From a virus, in the IMG/VR virus record IMGVR_UViG_3300042731_010163, positions 1 to 29,227 of that record: a stretch of 29,227 nucleotides of DNA; one strand, given 5' to 3'. A program made the position numbers and the translations under genes. Of the stretch, positions 14,350 to 26,117 are shown one piece after another. The stretch's first letter is position 1. Every line of letters begins with the position of its first letter. The notes beneath the pieces were generated by a model. It did no database searches and was not told the DNA's origin. It worked only from the letters and a program-made list of their open reading frames with translations.

Positions 14350-17145
14350 ATGACTGATTACACATATCCTGGGGTCTATATTCAAGAGGTTCCTAGTGGT
14401 CCTGGTCCGATTACTGGTGTTTCAACATCTAATTTGGGTCTTATTGGTTTTTCTACCAAAGGTCCAGTTAATGAACCAATTATATCGACAAGTTTTCAGG
14501 AATTTTCGAACAGATTTGGAAGTTTTACAGAGAAGGGTTTATCTGCTCATGAAGCGTTTGCTTTTTTCTCTAATGGTGGACAAGTTTTGTATTTTGTTAG
14601 GGTTGTGGCTAGTGATGCTGCAACAGCTTATTGGGATTTTGCTGCAACAGTATCAAGTGAAAATGTATCAAATACTGCTGAAGGAACAGGGATTTATGAT
14701 TTGGAATTAGATCATTCTCCGGTTGTTCCTGCTACATTGACATTGACTTTTACAAATTCTGGTACACCAGCAAATCAAAACGTATTTGTTGCTGATGCTA
14801 GTGGTGTGTTAACGTTAGATACAACAGCATCGGGTGTTTCAGCTGATGGTGGTACTGGTTCTGTTGATATGGAAACAGGGGAGATTCATGTAGAATTGAC
14901 TACACCTGGTCAATTTACAGGAAGTACTGATTATATTGTAGCTGAATATAATTATACGATATTCAGGTTTAGAATGGCATGGCCAGGATTGGCTGGGAAT
15001 TATTTTAGAGTAAGGATAATTCCAGGAAGTGATGATTATCTTGTTCAGGCTGAAGCTAGGTGGACAAGATTTACAGTAATCGTTGAAGAAGATGTAAATT
15101 ATGATGCAACAAATCGTTCATGGTCAATTGTTGAGACATGGGCAGATCTTGTATTTGATGATTCAGAGGATCCAAATTTTGTTGCTACAGTAATAAATGC
15201 TGATGGTGCTGGGTCTGATTATATCGAAGTAGTTGATTATGGAAACGGAATGAATCCTGCAGCGCTTGCAGGAACACAAATTACGTCTGAGGATATTTCT
15301 GATACTCAATTACCACAAGGCAGCACTTCTACTCCTCCTGTTGCATATGACGGAACAACAAAGGCTTGGGAATATACATTGGCAAATGCTCCATTTCAGA
15401 AGACTTTGAATATGGATTTTCAGATGGCTGATGGCTTAGTATCTTTTACTGGTGCAGCCACAGCGGATAATGTAGTTCTTACAGATTCTGGAGCAAATTT
15501 TACTGGTGGTGGGGCAGCAGATAATTTAGCTGGTAAGATTGTTGTAAATATATCAAAGGGAGCATCTGCAGTAATAACTGCAAATGATGCAACGACAATA
15601 ACAGGTGTATTAACAGGTGGGGCTGTAACATGGTTAACAGGTGATTTGTATGCTGTTATTGAGGCATCAACAAAGATAGGAACAGGAACTGCTCAAGCAA
15701 GTGGTCAAGAATCTGTAATATCACCTGGTAATACATCAAATCCTGTTCAGATTGTTCCTGGTTCAGTTGTGATGGAATTGACTCTTACTGGACCTACAAC
15801 TGTTCATGTTATAGATGATGGATCTGGTAATTTATGGGATGGTTCTGGTGGATCGTTGGCAACAATTGATTATACAACTGGTCAGATTACAGGTATAAGT
15901 CCTACAACTGATGATCTTATTACGATACAGAGTGTTACAGCATGGGCAAGTGACACAGTTGCTGTTGGTAGCGAAATTAAATTTGGTTGTATATATGCAG
16001 TTCCAATTGCATTGGAGGATGATGCGGATGGGAATATGGTAATGTCAGATACCCAAGCAACTGGGTATCCTGCTAAGTTTTCGCTTAATCTTGTTTCTGG
16101 TGTAAATACTGTTAATTATACAACTGGTGTTGTTGATTTAACATGGAAAATTGAGGGTAATCCAGTTGCAGGTCCAGCAGGAGTATATTCTGAAACAGCA
16201 GATTATTATACAAATCCAGATGATGAGATAGCAACGGTATTAACAGGAGGGTCTGATGGTTCTTCTGTTTCTAGTGATGATGTTGTAGGTGCAGATTTGG
16301 CAGTTGACCAGGAAGGCATATATGCTTTTGGAAAAGTAAATGCCTTGATGCAACTTGTAGCTGCTGATTTTCAGACAGATACAAATGTTGCTGATGCACT
16401 TATTACATATGCTGAATTGGTGAAGGATAAATTTGTTATTTTGACGGTTCCTCATGGTCTTAGTTATCAAGAGGCTGTTAATTGGAAGAAATTTCAACTT
16501 AATAAATATACTTCATATGCTGCTTTGTATTATCCGCATATCAAGATTAAGGACCCTGTGAGTGGAGTAAATCAGGATATTCCTGTTGGTGGACATGTAG
16601 CTGGGGTTTACGCAAGGACTGATACTATAAGAAATGTTGGTGAAGCTCCTGCTGGTACCGAAAAAGGTGTTTTGAATTGGTCAACTGGTCTTGAAGTTGA
16701 GTTGACTGATACACAGGTTGGTATTATATATCCAGAAAAGATAAATGCTTTAGTAGCATGGGCTAATACTGGACGTGTTGTATGGGGTGCTAGAACATTA
16801 GATATTTCTGGAGGTGAATGGCCATATATTCAGATGCGTAGGCTTTTCATGTTTGTTGAAAAATCAGTGTTTAATAGTACTCATTTGCATGTATTTAAAA
16901 ACAATGGTTCTTCATTATGGAGTGCAATAAGAACTCAGGTCGTTTCTTTCTTGTTAGGTTTGCACCAATCAGGATATTTTGCTGGAAATAGTCCAGATGA
17001 GTCATTCTTTGTGATTTGTGACCGGTCAAATAATCCTCAGAATACAGTGGACCAAGGTATCGTGTTTTGTGATGTAGGGATTGCACCTAATAAGCCAGCG
17101 GAATTCATAGTGTTCAGATTTCAGCAAAAGGCACTCACTAGTTAA
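14350..17145 (+). CDS. Tail sheath protein
   Basis: The contractile sheath subunit that surrounds the tube and shortens during DNA injection. The N-terminus reads 'YTYPGVYIQEVPSGPGPI ... GLIGFSTKGPVNEP', the standard sheath start, and residues 38-96 continue with 'GSFTEKGLSAHEAFAFF' and 'GGQVLYFVRVV'. The C-terminal third has 'VPHGLSYQEAVNWKKF', 'VVWGARTLDIS', 'WPYIQMRRLFMFVEKSV' and ends in 'IAPNKPAEFIVFRFQQK', all typical. At 931 residues it is much longer than ordinary sheaths (about 400-500) and longer than T4 gp18 (659). The extra length is a large Gly/Thr/Asp-rich region at roughly 110-660, probably surface domains. GGAG precedes the ATG. Confidence 0.95.
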   Translation: MTDYTYPGVYIQEVPSGPGPITGVSTSNLGLIGFSTKGPVNEPIISTSFQEFSNRFGSFTEKGLSAHEAFAFFSNGGQVLYFVRVVASDAATAYWDFAATVSSENVSNTAEGTGIYDLELDHSPVVPATLTLTFTNSGTPANQNVFVADASGVLTLDTTASGVSADGGTGSVDMETGEIHVELTTPGQFTGSTDYIVAEYNYTIFRFRMAWPGLAGNYFRVRIIPGSDDYLVQAEARWTRFTVIVEEDVNYDATNRSWSIVETWADLVFDDSEDPNFVATVINADGAGSDYIEVVDYGNGMNPAALAGTQITSEDISDTQLPQGSTSTPPVAYDGTTKAWEYTLANAPFQKTLNMDFQMADGLVSFTGAATADNVVLTDSGANFTGGGAADNLAGKIVVNISKGASAVITANDATTITGVLTGGAVTWLTGDLYAVIEASTKIGTGTAQASGQESVISPGNTSNPVQIVPGSVVMELTLTGPTTVHVIDDGSGNLWDGSGGSLATIDYTTGQITGISPTTDDLITIQSVTAWASDTVAVGSEIKFGCIYAVPIALEDDADGNMVMSDTQATGYPAKFSLNLVSGVNTVNYTTGVVDLTWKIEGNPVAGPAGVYSETADYYTNPDDEIATVLTGGSDGSSVSSDDVVGADLAVDQEGIYAFGKVNALMQLVAADFQTDTNVADALITYAELVKDKFVILTVPHGLSYQEAVNWKKFQLNKYTSYAALYYPHIKIKDPVSGVNQDIPVGGHVAGVYARTDTIRNVGEAPAGTEKGVLNWSTGLEVELTDTQVGIIYPEKINALVAWANTGRVVWGARTLDISGGEWPYIQMRRLFMFVEKSVFNSTHLHVFKNNGSSLWSAIRTQVVSFLLGLHQSGYFAGNSPDESFFVICDRSNNPQNTVDQGIVFCDVGIAPNKPAEFIVFRFQQKALTS

Positions 17146-17898: not shown

Positions 17899-18426
17899 AT
17901 GCGAGCAGCAAATACAGATTTCATGCAAGGTTTTAGATATCATGTTGTGGCAAATAATGGGGAGGGCGATCCACTTCAACCATCAGTTCAATCTGATCGT
18001 GATGGTCATGATACAAATGGTCAAGCTGGTTTTCAATCGGTTACAATTCCAGAAATTTCGGTGGAAGCAGCTGAATATAGAGAAGGTATTTTTAAATGGA
18101 CAGAAAAATTTCCTGGTCCACCTACTGTATCAGAATTGACTATGATGAGAGGTATTACAAAGCGTGATACTACATTTTATGATATGGTAATGGCATCTGT
18201 TGAAGGTGCGGAATATCGAGCAGATGTAATAATATATCATTATCAGAGATCTGAGATGGATTTAGCTACATCAGCTACAGTTGGTGATGATATTCGTAGG
18301 ATTGAGTGTGGAGAATGTTTTGCTATTCGTGCTAAACCAAATGGAGATTTGGATTCTACGGCTGGAGATGTTTCTTTAGGTGAAGTAGATCTTGCAGTGG
18401 AAAAATTTGAAGTAAAATATTCTTAA
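17899..18426 (+). CDS. Tail tube protein (T4 gp19-like)
   Basis: The inner tube subunit through which DNA passes. The product is 175 residues, close to T4 gp19 (163). It starts at the ATG preceded by AAGGAG; an ATG five bases earlier is out of frame. Typical tube features are the N-terminal 'NTDFMQGFRYHVV', a central 'ISVEAAEYREGIFKWTEKFP', 'ELTMMRGITKRDTTFYDMV', and the final 'GDVSLGEVDLAVEKFEVKY'. It is followed by a second, related gene. Position directly after sheath is standard for contractile phages. Confidence 0.88.
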   Translation: MRAANTDFMQGFRYHVVANNGEGDPLQPSVQSDRDGHDTNGQAGFQSVTIPEISVEAAEYREGIFKWTEKFPGPPTVSELTMMRGITKRDTTFYDMVMASVEGAEYRADVIIYHYQRSEMDLATSATVGDDIRRIECGECFAIRAKPNGDLDSTAGDVSLGEVDLAVEKFEVKYS

Positions 18427-18447
18427 TATTTTTATGAAGGTGCATAA

Positions 18448-19005
18448 ATGGCAAGAAATCGTTTATTGGATTTTATGCAAACTCATAAATTTTGGCTATT
18501 CGATGTAGTTCCAAGTTTGTCGCCTCCTTTTTGGGTTTTAGGGACACCCTTTTTAGGTTTTTCGAGTATTACAGCACCACAATATACTGCTGAAGTTGAT
18601 AATATAAAACAGATCAATTCTATGTTTCGGAAATATGCTTATTCTGGAGGACAAGTTGATCCAATAGTATTAACAAGAGGTGTTCGTGGTTTTGATGATA
18701 CTATGTGGGAATGGATGTATAGGGCAATAACTGGTCTAGAGGTTACAAATAGACATTTGTTATTGCTTCATTTTACGAATATTAGATTATCTGATAGTCC
18801 TTTTCCAAATGTGGCTGAAGGATTTCAATTTCCGATGACTGCTGGAATTTTTCTTCCTGGTAAAGCATGGCTTCTTTGGAATTCTATTCCAATACGGTAT
18901 AAAGCTGGATCAGATTTTGATGGCAAAAGTGGTGAAGTTAGTTTGGCTGAATTAGAGGTTCAGCCAGAAGCTATAACAGAATTTACATTGTTAGATCCTG
19001 TATGA
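18448..19005 (+). CDS. Second tail-tube-like protein (paralogue)
   Basis: The product is 185 residues with AAGGTG before the ATG. It shares the tube layout with the preceding gene: 'PIVLTRGVRGFDDTMWEWMY' aligns with 'ELTMMRGITKRDTTFYDMV', and 'PIRYKAGSDFDGKSGEVSLA' aligns with 'AIRAKPNGDLDSTAGDVSLG'. The N-terminus differs and is more hydrophobic and aromatic. It may be a tube initiator, a distal tube protein (T4 gp54/gp48-like role) or a minor tube ring. The paralogy is visible in sequence; the specific role is inference. Confidence 0.75.
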   Translation: MARNRLLDFMQTHKFWLFDVVPSLSPPFWVLGTPFLGFSSITAPQYTAEVDNIKQINSMFRKYAYSGGQVDPIVLTRGVRGFDDTMWEWMYRAITGLEVTNRHLLLLHFTNIRLSDSPFPNVAEGFQFPMTAGIFLPGKAWLLWNSIPIRYKAGSDFDGKSGEVSLAELEVQPEAITEFTLLDPV

Positions 19006-21101: not shown

Positions 21102-21119
21102 GTGTTTTATGTCAAACAC
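21102..21119. terminator. Weak bidirectional hairpin between convergent genes
   Basis: GTGTTT (21102-21107) and AAACAC (21114-21119) form a 6-bp inverted repeat with a 6-base loop, six bases past the forward stop and overlapping the reverse gene's stop. Flanks are AT-rich (TTATT on one side, AATTATT on the other). It could stop transcription from both sides, but the stem is AT-rich and the T-runs are short. Confidence 0.3.
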
Positions 21120-21457
21120 TTATTGATCCATTCAGTAATGAGAGCATCATAGATTTCACAGACATCGCATGGTTTAGTAAGAATATGTATATTGGGCATA
21201 TCATATTTGAGTGTATAGTTTGCTGTATATATTACGAATGGTATTGTTGAATGTTGAACTATTTTTAGTCCGTCTGATTTGTTTGGGCAATCCCAATCGC
21301 TAAGGATTATGTCAAAATTTCCGTCTTGAAGAGCTATTAGTCCATCATCACAGGAATGTTTGACTGTTATACTTTTCCAAGTATTTTTCATTACTCTGGA
21401 AAGCATACGAGTAATTTGTTCATCATCATCAATGATTAGTAAATTCAGGTTTTTCAT
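21107..21457 (-). CDS. Stand-alone CheY-like response-regulator receiver
   Basis: A 116-residue single receiver domain on the reverse strand. It begins 'MKNLNLLIIDDDEQITRMLS': D11 and D12 form the acidic Mg2+ pocket. D54 in 'FDIILSDWDCPNKSDG' is the phosphoacceptor, T78 ('VIYTAN') the conserved Thr/Ser and K95 ('ILTKPC') the conserved Lys. All residues for phosphorylation are therefore present. There is no output domain, so it would act by protein contact, as a decoy, or as a phosphate sink for a host histidine kinase. It is co-directional with the zinc-ribbon gene seven bases upstream and shares its promoter. Opposite strand and unrelated function mark it as accessory cargo in a tail module. 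Confidence 0.88.
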   Translation of the reverse strand: MKNLNLLIIDDDEQITRMLSRVMKNTWKSITVKHSCDDGLIALQDGNFDIILSDWDCPNKSDGLKIVQHSTIPFVIYTANYTLKYDMPNIHILTKPCDVCEIYDALITEWINKCLT

Positions 21458-21835: not shown

Positions 21836-22015
21836 ATGCCAAGGTTGAATGTTGAAATAAAAAGTGGTGTATATAAGAGGTTTCTTGATCAATGTAAGGA
21901 GGATGGTAGAAGTGCTAGTGATGTTGTTAGAGAGTTGATTTTAGATTATGTGGAGAGAAGAGTTAGGGAAAAATTTAGGATTGCTAAAATAGAGAAAGAA
22001 GTTACAGATGAATGA
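21836..22015 (+). CDS. Ribbon-helix-helix DNA-binding protein
   Basis: A 59-residue gene with AGGAAGG seven bases before the ATG. 'PRLNVEIKSGVYKRF' supplies the N-terminal beta ribbon and first helix, and 'KEDGRSASDVVRELILDYVE' gives the turn and second helix, followed by a charged tail. This is the Arc/MetJ/CopG-type fold, which binds DNA as a dimer of ribbons, usually to repressor sites. It begins 161 bp from the divergent cargo operon and overlaps the next gene by eight bases. It is likely an autorepressor and possibly the controller of the reverse promoter; a link to the palindromes elsewhere in the window is possible but untested. Confidence 0.75.
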   Translation: MPRLNVEIKSGVYKRFLDQCKEDGRSASDVVRELILDYVERRVREKFRIAKIEKEVTDE

Positions 22016-22835
22016 GATGAATGATGAAAAGGTTATCGATGATAAAATTGTATTAGGTAAGACAAAAGGTCATGTTCTTGATATAGGGCCAGGTTGTATT
22101 ACTATTGAGTTGCCAGCAGGATATATTCATGAGGATGGAGAGCTTCACGTGCATGCTGTATTACGTGAGATGAAGGGACCAGAAGAAGAATTGTTGGCTA
22201 GTAAAGGTTCAATAGTTTCTAGATTGAATGTTATAATTGGGAATTGTTTAGAGCAAATAGGGTCTATTAGTGATAAGTCTTTATTAAGAAAAATAGCTTG
22301 TAATCTGATAGCTCAAGATAGAATGGCTATTCTTTTGGCTCTTCGTAGAATATCACTTGGTGATTTTTATGATTGTACAGTTACATGTCCAGAGTGTAAT
22401 GTGAGTCAGCATGTTACGGTAAATTTATCAGAAATTGAAATTTCACCAATGCCAAATAGGATGGAAAGAGAAATGGTTAATGTTCTTCCTAGTGGAAGAG
22501 AAGTAAAATGGCATGTGATAAGGATAGAAGATGAAGAATGGCTTACAGAGCAGCGTAAAAGAAAAAGAGATAAAGAACTTTTAACATTACATTTATTGTC
22601 TCGTGTTGATTCGATTGATGATATTGAAGTAGATAGAAAGAATAAGTATAAAGAAGCTATTGATTTGTTGATGGATTTACCGATAAGGGATAGAGCTACT
22701 TTGAGAGATCTTTTTGATAAAAAAGAAGATAATATAGATACGTTGGTGCAGTTTATGTGTGAGAGGTGTGGACATGAATGGGAAGGTAAGTTGGATGTTG
22801 GTCAGCCAAGTTTTTTCTTCCCATCGGTCAAATAG
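22008..22835 (+). CDS. gp26/gp51-like tail assembly protein, zinc-ribbon type
   Basis: The product is 275 residues. The N-terminal half carries a beta region ('IGPGCITIELPAGYIHEDGE') followed by helices. Two Cys pairs, C127-x2-C130 and C251-x2-C254 ('CPEC' and 'CERC'), look like two halves of one zinc site. The layout matches the T4 baseplate-assembly family (gp26/gp51). In this phage it sits just upstream of the tape measure, the place of a tail assembly chaperone. The stop lies 18 bases past a TTTTTTC heptamer, so a minority of ribosomes may continue into the -1 frame to give a longer form. An ATG nine bases further in is an alternative start. Confidence 0.65.
   Translation: MNEMNDEKVIDDKIVLGKTKGHVLDIGPGCITIELPAGYIHEDGELHVHAVLREMKGPEEELLASKGSIVSRLNVIIGNCLEQIGSISDKSLLRKIACNLIAQDRMAILLALRRISLGDFYDCTVTCPECNVSQHVTVNLSEIEISPMPNRMEREMVNVLPSGREVKWHVIRIEDEEWLTEQRKRKRDKELLTLHLLSRVDSIDDIEVDRKNKYKEAIDLLMDLPIRDRATLRDLFDKKEDNIDTLVQFMCERCGHEWEGKLDVGQPSFFFPSVK
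22811..22817 (+). other. Candidate -1 frameshift slippery site TTTTTTC
   Basis: The heptamer is in the right phase: reading-frame codons are ...AGT TTT TTC..., giving T-TTT-TTC (X-XXY-YYZ). After slippage the ribosome reads TTT TTT CTT CCC ATC and continues. The -1 frame is open from 22790 (last stop TAA at 22787-22789) to the TAA at 23015-23017. The normal stop TAG is only 16 bases after the heptamer, as is common for tail-chaperone shifts. Confidence 0.65.
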
Positions 22836-23017
22836 ATGTCCTTGAGGATGAAATGTTTTATTTAATGGAAAGACAAGGACAGAGTTATTTGACCATTATG
22901 AATATGCCATATTCAAGAAGAAAGCGGTTTGTAGAAAAAAAATCTTCATTAGATAGATCTGCTATGAATGTTAAAAAGAATCAGCAAAGTTATAGCAGAC
23001 CAAGACGAAGAAGGTAA
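22817..23017 (+). CDS. -1 frameshift extension (or short separate gene from 22853)
   Basis: In the -1 frame this adds 66 residues after residue 270 of the gp26-like protein, for a 336-residue fusion. It begins LPIGQIDVLEDEMFYLMERQ, continues to 'TIMNMPYSRRKRFVEKK', and ends in a basic tail. An independent start is also possible at the ATG at 22853 (GAGG five bases upstream), giving 54 residues. The frame stops at 23017, directly before palindrome copy 5 and 25 bases before the tape measure gene. Gene order and the basic extension match the G/GT-type chaperone of many tailed phages, in which the extension binds tape measure or tube proteins. Both expression modes may be used. Confidence 0.6.
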   Translation, partial: LPIGQIDVLEDEMFYLMERQGQSYLTIMNMPYSRRKRFVEKKSSLDRSAMNVKKNQQSYSRPRRRR

Positions 23018-23042: not shown

Positions 23043-26000
23043 ATGAGTTTTCTTGGTATATCATTGGAGATGGCAGCTGTTGATGCTGGGATGAAGGATG
23101 GCATTATAAAGGCTGCAAAAGCACTTGATGATGTTAACAAAATGTTAATAGACCAGGATAGTGTTATCAAGAAAATCAAGAAAGAGAATTTTTTTGAAGA
23201 TACAGAAAAAAATGCCGGTAAAGCATCTAATAAAGTAGGTATTTTATCTAAGACATTTAAAGAGCTTGGCAATATTGGGTCAAAATCTGCAAATAAAATA
23301 AAATCATCTTTTGATAAAATAAGAAATTCTGTGATGCAATTTAATATTGCTGATATGGCATCAAATGTTAGAACATTAACTGGAGAGACTGGTAATCTTA
23401 CAAATAGTTTGGAAGCTACAATGGTGAGTATGCTTCAGTCTACTAAACCAGTTGCTGCATCATTGAATTTATCAGGAAAGGAGATGAGGAAGTTTGCAAG
23501 TCAAGCGGCAAGTATGGCCTATAGTATGAATACATCGGCTGATGCTGTTGCAGAGACAATGAGGTCAATTCATGTAGCTAATAAGGGAGCAACAGAGGCT
23601 ATGAATGAATTGGGATTGTCTACAAAAGATTGGGTAAAAGTTGTTCAAACAACTAACGTTCCTATGTCTGAATATACAGCTATTCTTGGTGATATGACAA
23701 CAAGTTGGCAAGCTTCACCAAAAGAGGCCGCTAATATGATTGACAGCCTTATGGCAATAGGAAAGGCTGCTGGAACTGGAACTGGTGCTGTAAAGAATGC
23801 AAAAGTTCAGTTGGATGAATTAGGGGAAGTTTTTAAAACATTGCCTCCTTCTATGGCAAGAACTTCTGACGAGATAATGAGTTTAATGCAATCATCAGCT
23901 AGAATGTCTGGTGTATTTAGAGAGATGGGAGATACGCAAGAAGAAGCTATAACAAAGGCAAATACTGTAGCAAGAATGTTTGCTGAACAGGATGTAGCTA
24001 TTAGAAAAGCTTTAAATATTGGTGATGACCGTGCTCTTATGGATAATCCATTGCTTAAGTATCTTATGAGACTTGGTATTGGATTTGATTCGGCCAGAAA
24101 GATTATTGAAACTGGTAGTCGTGATGTAGTTGCTGGTATGAAGATGGTTAATAATGTTTATGCACGTTTTGGAACTGATGTGTCTCCACAAGTTCAAAGA
24201 GCTTTATCTGGATTAAGTGGTGCTCTTGGGGAAGGAGCTGCTGGATTATCATATTTGGCGACTAATACAAAACAAGGAACTGCTGCATTAGATAAAATGG
24301 CAAAAATGGCTGTTGATGGGTCTGGTGCATTAAAGAAATTTGGAAAAGATGCATATAGTTCCGGGTTAACCTTACAAGAAACATATGATAGAGCAAAAGA
24401 GTCATTTGATACAACTGTTAGAAGTATAGCTAGACAAAATGTAAGAAATCTTGTTGGAAAACAAATTGCTGGTATGCGTGAAGCAGGAAAAGAAATAAAA
24501 GAACTTGGTTCTGATAAAACTTGGGGACCATGGGTAAATGCATTATCTCAATTTCGTCAGATGGGTATTAGTGGTGTATTTGCATCTATGGCTGAATATA
24601 CAGGGGTTGGTGCTAAAAACGCGGCAAAATTTGGATCTAAAATTGGATTAGTATTTGATACAGTTAGTCAGTTTGGAAGTGAACTTGCTCCAATAATGCA
24701 TATGTTGGGTATGGCAGGTCCTCTTGCTCCATTAATTGCTGCTGGAGGTATTGGTGCTTTATTATTTATGGATGATTCGTCTGTTAGACAAATTTTAGGT
24801 CCATTTTATAAAATTTTTAATGATTTAAAAAATAAGGCTGCAAAAATATGGGATTATTTTATAGGTATTTGGGATAATAAAGTTGTTCCTAGGATTAAAG
24901 TATTTTGGAAATATGATATGAAACCAGCAATGATTGATTTTTGGAATGAAGATTTTATTCCTTTTTTGAAAGAAAATATTCCTAAATTGGGGATGGCAAT
25001 ATGGGATGGAATTAAGTGGGCTTGGAATAAATTAGGAGAGATGACAGGAACTACTGGTCAGGCAGGTGTTATAGGTGGAGCTATGTTGGCTGGTTTTGGA
25101 CCAGGAATGGTCGGAGCTGGTACTCAAGCTGGAATAGCTTTTTTGAAAGCTGTTGCATCTCATCCAACTGCTGCTGGTGCTACAGGTCTTGCTGGTTTAG
25201 CTGCTTATGCTGGGTGGAAAATGGCAGAGTCTATTTTTGGGCCAAAATCTGTTAGTAATGCAATAGCTGAAGCTGAGGTAATAGCTGGTGGAAGTGCTGA
25301 TAAATTTGGAATGTATAAGTTGGCATGGCAGCGTAAACCGGAAGAGATGGCAGGTCAATTGGGCAGATTAAGAGCTGCTCTTAAAGCGGAAAAGGAAAGT
25401 TGGTTTCCTGATAGTGATGATGTTAAAATTCTTGAAAAAGCTATATCTTTATTAACAGATGCCCAAAGTGAGCTTATTCTTGATAAGACGGAATCGAATG
25501 TTGAAAAATATACTTTGGGTGGAAAGACGACAGCAGAGCAATTTATAAATGGTCTAACATCAGGATTAGAAGAAGGTAGGCAATCTGTTGATGATGGTCT
25601 TGATTTTATAGCAGATGGAATGATAGCACATTCTCCAATAAAATCTGGTCCTCTTGCTGGTGAAGGAGAGTCTAACGCTGCATATCGTGGTGGATATTTT
25701 ACGATGGAACAGTTTGCTTTAGGTATTACAGATAGTACTGATATTATTAGGAGAGCAATTGAAACAACTCTTAATGATTCTGTTATACTTACTATAGATA
25801 CATATGCTGCTAAAATGAGAGACCTTGCTAAACAAAAGATGTTTTTGGCATCTGTTGCTAAAGCAATGGTAAAAGATTTAGGTGGAAATATAGAAACATC
25901 TATTGATTCCGAATCTGATATAAATGTGAAAAAGAATTTTGAAGCTGCTATGAATTTACCTGGTCTTGCTAGTGTTGTTTTGGCTGTTTCAAATGAAGGT

Positions 26001-26117
26001 GCTCAAACAAGGAAATTATTAAAACGTATTTTAGAAGAAAATATACGTCAAACTAGTGTAATGAGTGGTGGTGTGAGTATTCCTGTGACAGGAACTACTA
26101 CTCCACCACCAAGTTGA
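23043..26117 (+). CDS. Tail tape measure protein
   Basis: The product is 1024 residues. The tape measure sets tail length and is ejected or relocated during injection. It shows the usual order: a charged coiled N-terminal region (about 20-90), a Met/Ala/Ser-rich helical middle with many 'MSGVF', 'GTGTGA' and 'AKAL' stretches, hydrophobic segments near 553-580 and 670-725 (possible membrane-active parts), and a C-terminal 'HSPIKSGPLAG' segment near 862-875, typical of tape measures. No lysozyme or peptidase motif is visible. At the usual rough rule of 0.15 nm per residue, the tail would be about 150 nm. GAGG lies before the ATG. Confidence 0.9.
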   Translation: MSFLGISLEMAAVDAGMKDGIIKAAKALDDVNKMLIDQDSVIKKIKKENFFEDTEKNAGKASNKVGILSKTFKELGNIGSKSANKIKSSFDKIRNSVMQFNIADMASNVRTLTGETGNLTNSLEATMVSMLQSTKPVAASLNLSGKEMRKFASQAASMAYSMNTSADAVAETMRSIHVANKGATEAMNELGLSTKDWVKVVQTTNVPMSEYTAILGDMTTSWQASPKEAANMIDSLMAIGKAAGTGTGAVKNAKVQLDELGEVFKTLPPSMARTSDEIMSLMQSSARMSGVFREMGDTQEEAITKANTVARMFAEQDVAIRKALNIGDDRALMDNPLLKYLMRLGIGFDSARKIIETGSRDVVAGMKMVNNVYARFGTDVSPQVQRALSGLSGALGEGAAGLSYLATNTKQGTAALDKMAKMAVDGSGALKKFGKDAYSSGLTLQETYDRAKESFDTTVRSIARQNVRNLVGKQIAGMREAGKEIKELGSDKTWGPWVNALSQFRQMGISGVFASMAEYTGVGAKNAAKFGSKIGLVFDTVSQFGSELAPIMHMLGMAGPLAPLIAAGGIGALLFMDDSSVRQILGPFYKIFNDLKNKAAKIWDYFIGIWDNKVVPRIKVFWKYDMKPAMIDFWNEDFIPFLKENIPKLGMAIWDGIKWAWNKLGEMTGTTGQAGVIGGAMLAGFGPGMVGAGTQAGIAFLKAVASHPTAAGATGLAGLAAYAGWKMAESIFGPKSVSNAIAEAEVIAGGSADKFGMYKLAWQRKPEEMAGQLGRLRAALKAEKESWFPDSDDVKILEKAISLLTDAQSELILDKTESNVEKYTLGGKTTAEQFINGLTSGLEEGRQSVDDGLDFIADGMIAHSPIKSGPLAGEGESNAAYRGGYFTMEQFALGITDSTDIIRRAIETTLNDSVILTIDTYAAKMRDLAKQKMFLASVAKAMVKDLGGNIETSIDSESDINVKKNFEAAMNLPGLASVVLAVSNEGAQTRKLLKRILEENIRQTSVMSGGVSIPVTGTTTPPPS

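Follow-up and report, generated by a model that had tools for sequence, protein, structure and literature searches.

The gene at 22008-22835 on the plus strand of the window (the whole stretch of viral DNA analyzed, 29,227 nucleotides, IMG/VR record IMGVR_UViG_3300042731_010163) very probably encodes a tail assembly chaperone of the T4 gp26/gp51 (PF12322) kind, with a short form, TAC-N, and a longer form, TAC-NC, predicted to be made by -1 frameshifting. The probability of this reading, which was reached by sequence comparison, was put at about 0.92. The phase of the slippery site, its conservation, selection on the -1 frame, a conserved potential stem, fold resemblance, and gene order support it at the sequence level, and we infer the slippage itself, its efficiency, its stimulation by the stem, and a division of labour between the two forms. 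An earlier note on this DNA had proposed a G/GT-like pair in which a gp26/gp51-like, zinc-site protein serves as the chaperone. Heptamer conservation, purifying selection on the -1 frame, the stem-loop, and matches to chaperone folds all bore this out; the downstream stem-loop and the breadth of heptamer conservation had been missed.

The slippery site and the two reading frames

The 3' codons of the gp26-like gene read AGT TTT TTC TTC CCA TCG GTC AAA TAG. By codon reading, the slippery heptamer T_TTT_TTC (22811-22817, plus strand) lies in phase, and it is identical in the related contig L003. A 0-frame tail of 15 nt separates it from the stop codon TAG (22833-22835, plus strand), which lies within a downstream stem. 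A tandem -1 slip would join 22008-22817 (270 aa) to 66 codons at 22817-23014, closed by TAA at 23015-23017. The -1 frame extension (22811-23017, plus strand), which is intact in L003, would thus form the C-terminal part of a predicted 336-aa fusion, TAC-NC, and 25 nt separate its stop from the start codon of the tape measure gene (ATG, 23043). The claim of the earlier note that T-TTT-TTC stands in exact phase, with a stop shortly after and 66 added codons ending before the tape measure gene, was confirmed in each of these points. The predicted junction peptides of the fusion are LDVGQPSFFLPIGQIDVLEDEMFYLMER in the window, GIEDFFR in phage KVP40, and ...SFFR in cultured cyanophages. The corresponding short-form ends are GIEDFFV in KVP40 and, in cyanophages, ...SFF plus a single variable residue.

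The heptamer was found in phase only twice in the 8539 codons of window genes, and the chance expectation for it over the final 15 codons of a single gene is about 0.0035. Third-position C makes up about 3% in the window genome, and Phe-Phe was written TTT TTC in 2 of 17 cases. As in G/GT pairs, the heptamer precedes the 0-frame stop and is overlapped by a conserved -1 frame.

Relatives of the window lineage and selection on the -1 frame

Two distinct sequences were found in the window's own lineage, represented by five contigs from several samples. The near-identical IMG/VR contigs L002 and L005 had the same bases at the site, and the lineage of L003 and L004, with 69% protein identity, had the same junction and an uninterrupted -1 ORF. 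These contigs bear on the possibility that the true run is seven T and the gene one continuous frame, interrupted here by a sequencing or assembly error. A homopolymer site in a metagenome assembly might invite such an error, but the six-T run was present in all five contigs, including those of the 69%-identical lineage, and also in cultured phages with finished genomes. Since the same run recurs in independent contigs, a base-calling error is very unlikely, and this explanation was ruled out for practical purposes.

Within 35 nt past the heptamer, two bases differed between the window and L003. Only one of them, at 22828 (T to C), falls within the overlap; as read from the alignment, it alters the 0-frame residue and leaves the -1 residue unchanged. 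Across the extension as a whole, differences fell on the three -1 codon positions as 16/16/26, with a dN of 0.28 and a dS of 0.82. The other two frames of the extension held 9 and 11 stop columns, without a comparable dS excess. Judged by these comparisons, purifying selection acts on the -1 frame.

The downstream stem-loop

A stem-loop, the probable frameshift stimulator, was found at 22826-22894 on the plus strand (arms 22826-22835/22885-22894 and 22837-22844/22874-22881). The spacer between it and the heptamer is 8 nt, and the 0-frame stop is held in its stem. Its z score was -3.2 to -4.3, varying with the stretch folded and with the shuffles. In the window background, about 0.5% of 75-nt stretches reached a z of -3.8 (P about 0.005). 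L003 kept 17 of the 18 stem pairs, with one compensatory change, two one-sided changes, and one pair broken. In the covariation control, which had two sequences only, shuffles reached the observed counts in 265 of 500 cases, a non-significant result, and the conservation of the stem between the window and L003 is suggestive. Both elements of a -1 signal, the heptamer and a stable RNA structure 5-9 nt past it, were present in the window and in L003.

Stable downstream structure (z of -3.5 or lower at 80 nt) was also found in KVP40, VH7D, Atu_ph07, Phosso, and Bellamy, and strong downstream structure was absent from the heptamer-bearing phages RaK2, SCTP-2, and Vibrio 2.275.O. No consensus stem-loop emerged from 80 cyanophage loci (mean z of -1.7 and consensus energy of -1.8), which means that the stem is not shared by the whole family. 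Upstream of the site, no strong structure was seen in the lineages folded, and inspection by eye gave no conserved Shine-Dalgarno-like stimulator.

The site could also act at the level of transcription, if RNA polymerase slipped on the six-T run and an extra U in some mRNAs fused the two frames. This run is common to all heptamer-bearing relatives, but six T is short for efficient transcriptional slippage, and the C at the seventh base, the way the run is phased against the codons, and the stem-loop 8 nt further on fit tandem tRNA slippage. We regard polymerase slippage as very improbable, and tandem tRNA slippage as the preferred explanation.

The chaperone body, its probable zinc site, and its modelled fold

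The body of the protein (short form, 275 aa) matched PF12322 (T4_baseplate; T4 gp26/gp51) with an E value of 1.6e-13 and 51.3 bits, above the curated cutoff of 24.5, and matched phrog_150, "baseplate hub", with an E value of 6.5e-16. Two CxxC motifs, C127/C130 (22386-22397) and C251/C254 (22758-22769), both on the plus strand, form a probable four-cysteine zinc site and were invariant in eight relatives, all of them distant ones.

The AlphaFold model of the body (pLDDT 82) matched viral gp26-like models. Among 991 aligned PDB chains, the top match by VIA-align was 2OB9, the HK97 tail assembly chaperone (Z 6.4, 100 of 104 residues), followed by 3KLU, YqbN (Z 6.3), with the next row at 3.4. YqbN is a tail assembly chaperone homologue. 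Foldseek alone gave no match in the PDB at E <= 0.001 (E 2.5 for 2OB9); the chaperone fold match emerged on VIA realignment of solved chains. A phmmer search against solved structures returned nothing credible. With these moderate Z scores, the modelled body appears, with moderate confidence, to resemble the tail assembly chaperone fold.

The window extension aligned weakly by hhalign with the cyanophage and RaK2-like extensions (E about 0.01) and with T4 gp51 (E 0.22). A scan of bacterial genomes with the fusion protein found no relative, and neither the alignment of eight distant relatives nor that of 25 rows contained a stretch conserved enough for a collection scan.

Conservation in jumbo phages, KVP40, and cyanophages

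Distant relatives were found by tblastn against public phages. An in-phase T_TTT_TTC with an open -1 ORF was present in 13 jumbo phages (Vibrio 2.275.O, 121Q, CBB, XbC2, XaC1, Munch, GAP32, RaK2, Hallingskeid, Atu_ph07, Phosso, PA5oct, and SCTP-2), and also in the T4-like phage KVP40 and the cyanophage Bellamy. XacN1 had the -1 extension without an in-phase T_TTT_TTC. Given the residues, the chance of the heptamer arising by codon choice alone was 0.05-0.18 per phage, the phages not being independent. The earlier note had named conservation of the heptamer in relatives as one check of its proposal, and the heptamer was kept in the 69%-identical relative, the jumbo phages, KVP40, and the cyanophages.

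In KVP40 (L028:2474-3489), gene 26 overlaps the ORF annotated as gp51, with an in-phase T_TTT_TTC GTA TAA. From this arrangement, gene 26 and the gp51 ORF are likely to be one chaperone in two forms.

All 80 cyanophage loci carried the heptamer. The Phe codons were always TTT TTC, and the preceding codon was TCT, AGT, or GGT. The flanking codons varied freely, and synonymous variation vanished exactly over the heptamer. The Arg that follows the slip in the -1 frame was kept in 79 of 80 loci, while the 0-frame residue varied (Ala, Gly, Val, Glu), which fits -1 translation and not a separate downstream start.

These data also weigh on the reading in which the -1 ORF stands as a small gene in its own right (a short gp51), started by coupling or internal initiation, with the heptamer incidental. 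Annotators of KVP40, Bellamy, 121Q, and others did list it as an ORF of its own, an in-frame ATG occurs by codon 8 of the -1 frame in most cyanophages, and an internal start in T4 gene 26 is known to yield a product of its own, annotated gp26'. In the window, GAGG at 22844-22847 precedes an internal ATG at 22853-22855 (22844-22855 in all, plus strand), which the earlier note took as a second way to make the C-terminal part. The motif and the ATG are present, but L003 has ATT in place of this ATG, so that a second start is unsupported and was judged unlikely; in a few cyanophages, too, the early ATG that most of them have is missing. Constraint on the -1 frame reaches upstream of any start, to FFR with its nearly invariant Arg, and the freezing of synonymous codons exactly over the heptamer would be needless for a separate start. 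We consider a separate gene improbable and retain the frameshift as the origin of the long form.

Relatives with extensions in the +1 frame

In SP-15, LIS04, and GXN1, the gp51-like extension lay in the +1 frame (L007:3983-5000, L025:2501-3440, and L026:2501-3446, respectively), and all three had the motif CCCGATT ahead of the 0-frame stop. In 17 of 17 Streptomyces-type sequences, a set made up of 15 IMG/VR loci and two named phages (L010:3866-4973, L011:3896-4970, and L120-L134), the 0-frame stop of the gp26-like gene was followed by a conserved +1 extension of 70-78 codons. In annotations, the extension of the Streptomyces-type phages appears as a shorter ORF from an internal ATG, or not at all.

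The PF12322 family may have changed repeatedly in how it reaches its extension: by -1 frameshifting at T_TTT_TTC in the window, the jumbo phages, KVP40, and the cyanophages, by a +1 shift in SP-15-like Firmicute and Streptomyces-type phages, and by duplication in T4. That this holds and that the stem-loop of the window is a real stimulator, completing a full two-element -1 signal, is a combined proposal to which we give even odds. If it is true, the family would be a natural series of frameshift signals arising, switching direction, and being replaced.

Comparison with T4, lambda, and other known systems

T4 gp26 (208 aa) and gp51 (249 aa) both matched PF12322 (8.8e-64 and 3.9e-52, respectively). 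The last residues of gp26, GLKEFFELL, lined up with the terminus of the short form, and gp51 passed through the junction into a segment resembling the cyanophage/KVP40 extension, the profile of which matched T4 gp51 in a two-sequence search. Because gp26 ends at the short-form end and gp51 runs into the extension, the two T4 proteins look like the short and long forms kept as separate genes. Frameshifting is reportedly conserved in several T4-like groups, with T4 itself said to use genes 26 and 51.

A review of the T4 tail describes gp26 and gp51 as hub assembly chaperones, with gp51 not in the final particle. In a 2010 comparison of T4-like genomes, cyanophage gp51 was only about 20% of the usual length, and the word "frameshift" was not found in the text; a 2016 review described the G-T frameshift as general except in T4. 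Slippery sequences in the TAC-N genes of T4-like phages were described by Vladimirov, Gautam & Davidson (2022, Virology 566:9-15), as related in PMC12846349. Going by that account, a gp26/gp51-like chaperone with a frameshift is a known kind of system, published in 2022 for T4-like chaperones, and not a new combination. The present analysis may add to it the lineage, the stem-loop past the heptamer, the statistics on codon-level conservation, and the relatives whose extension lies in another frame.

The window shares with the T4-like gp26 (TAC-N)/gp51 (TAC-NC) system the PF12322 match, the short/long pair, and a poly-T slippery site. In T4, however, the two forms are on separate genes on opposite strands, whereas the window has a single gene with a predicted frameshift, followed directly by the tape measure gene. 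The window also differs from the T4-like phages in its 0-frame tail of 15 nt past the heptamer and in its different, basic extension. With lambda gpG/gpGT (Xu, Hendrix & Duda 2004; review PMC5009743) it has in common the overlapping frames, a -1 slip near the end of the first, and a tape measure gene next in order; in contrast, the sequences are unrelated or extremely diverged, and the window has a body with a probable zinc site and the heptamer T_TTT_TTC. In Vandenendeviridae and Andersonviridae, according to the paper on phage Adele (PMC12846349), a -1 frameshift is conserved and its GTTTTT motif is invariant. The conserved -1 frameshift, the poly-T motif at the end of TAC-N, and the extension before the tape measure gene are shared with the window, where the motif is T_TTT_TTC in place of GTTTTT.

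Under the proposed mechanism, most ribosomes would end at 22835 and produce the short form of 275 aa (TAC-N, comparable to lambda gpG). A minority would pause at the stem-loop 8 nt past T_TTT_TTC, where both tRNAs would re-pair one base back (TTT TTC to TTT TTT), and -1 translation through 66 codons would yield the long form of 336 aa (TAC-NC, comparable to lambda gpGT). If the parallel with lambda holds, the body would coat the tape measure protein, the extension would recruit tail tube subunits, and both chaperone forms would leave before the virion is completed. In public annotations of KVP40, cyanophages, and jumbo phages, each half of this protein is given a gene of its own, or the second half is missing. 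The comparative data suggest that in these phages the halves belong to a single chaperone with a short and a long form, which supports what was proposed in 2022 for T4-like phages and extends it to the window lineage and the jumbo phages.

Neighbouring genes

Further tail genes lie on the plus strand on either side of the chaperone gene. The tail sheath protein (14350-17145) matched PF04984 (E 4.1e-9) and PF17482 (E 2e-7). A gp19-like tail tube protein (17899-18426; PF06841, E 9e-13) is adjoined by a second one (18448-19005; PF06841, E 1.1e-6). The tape measure gene (23043-26117, 1024 aa) matched phrog_167, tail length tape measure (E 1.5e-7), and PhageMin_Tail (E 0.0027, below the Pfam cutoff). 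The order of tube genes (17899-19005), chaperone gene (22008-23017 with its extension), and tape measure gene (from 23043) places the chaperone gene where G/GT genes lie; small ORFs on both strands sit between the tube genes and the chaperone gene.

A receiver-like protein (21107-21457; Response_reg, E 1e-6, just under the Pfam cutoff) is encoded on the minus strand between tube and chaperone, opposing the tail genes. The gene for a small ribbon-helix-helix (Arc/CopG-like) protein (21836-22015) overlaps the chaperone start by 8 bases. The perfect 12-bp palindrome GAACTCGAGTTC was found in six exact copies, at 1782, 11027, 13140, 19763, 23019, and 29142, against an expectation of 0.37 even with two mismatches allowed. 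The copies are mostly intergenic, just 5' of a start codon, and one directly follows the stop of the -1 ORF. Two copies occur at the same places in L003, and the palindrome is possibly a regulator site or an RNA hairpin.
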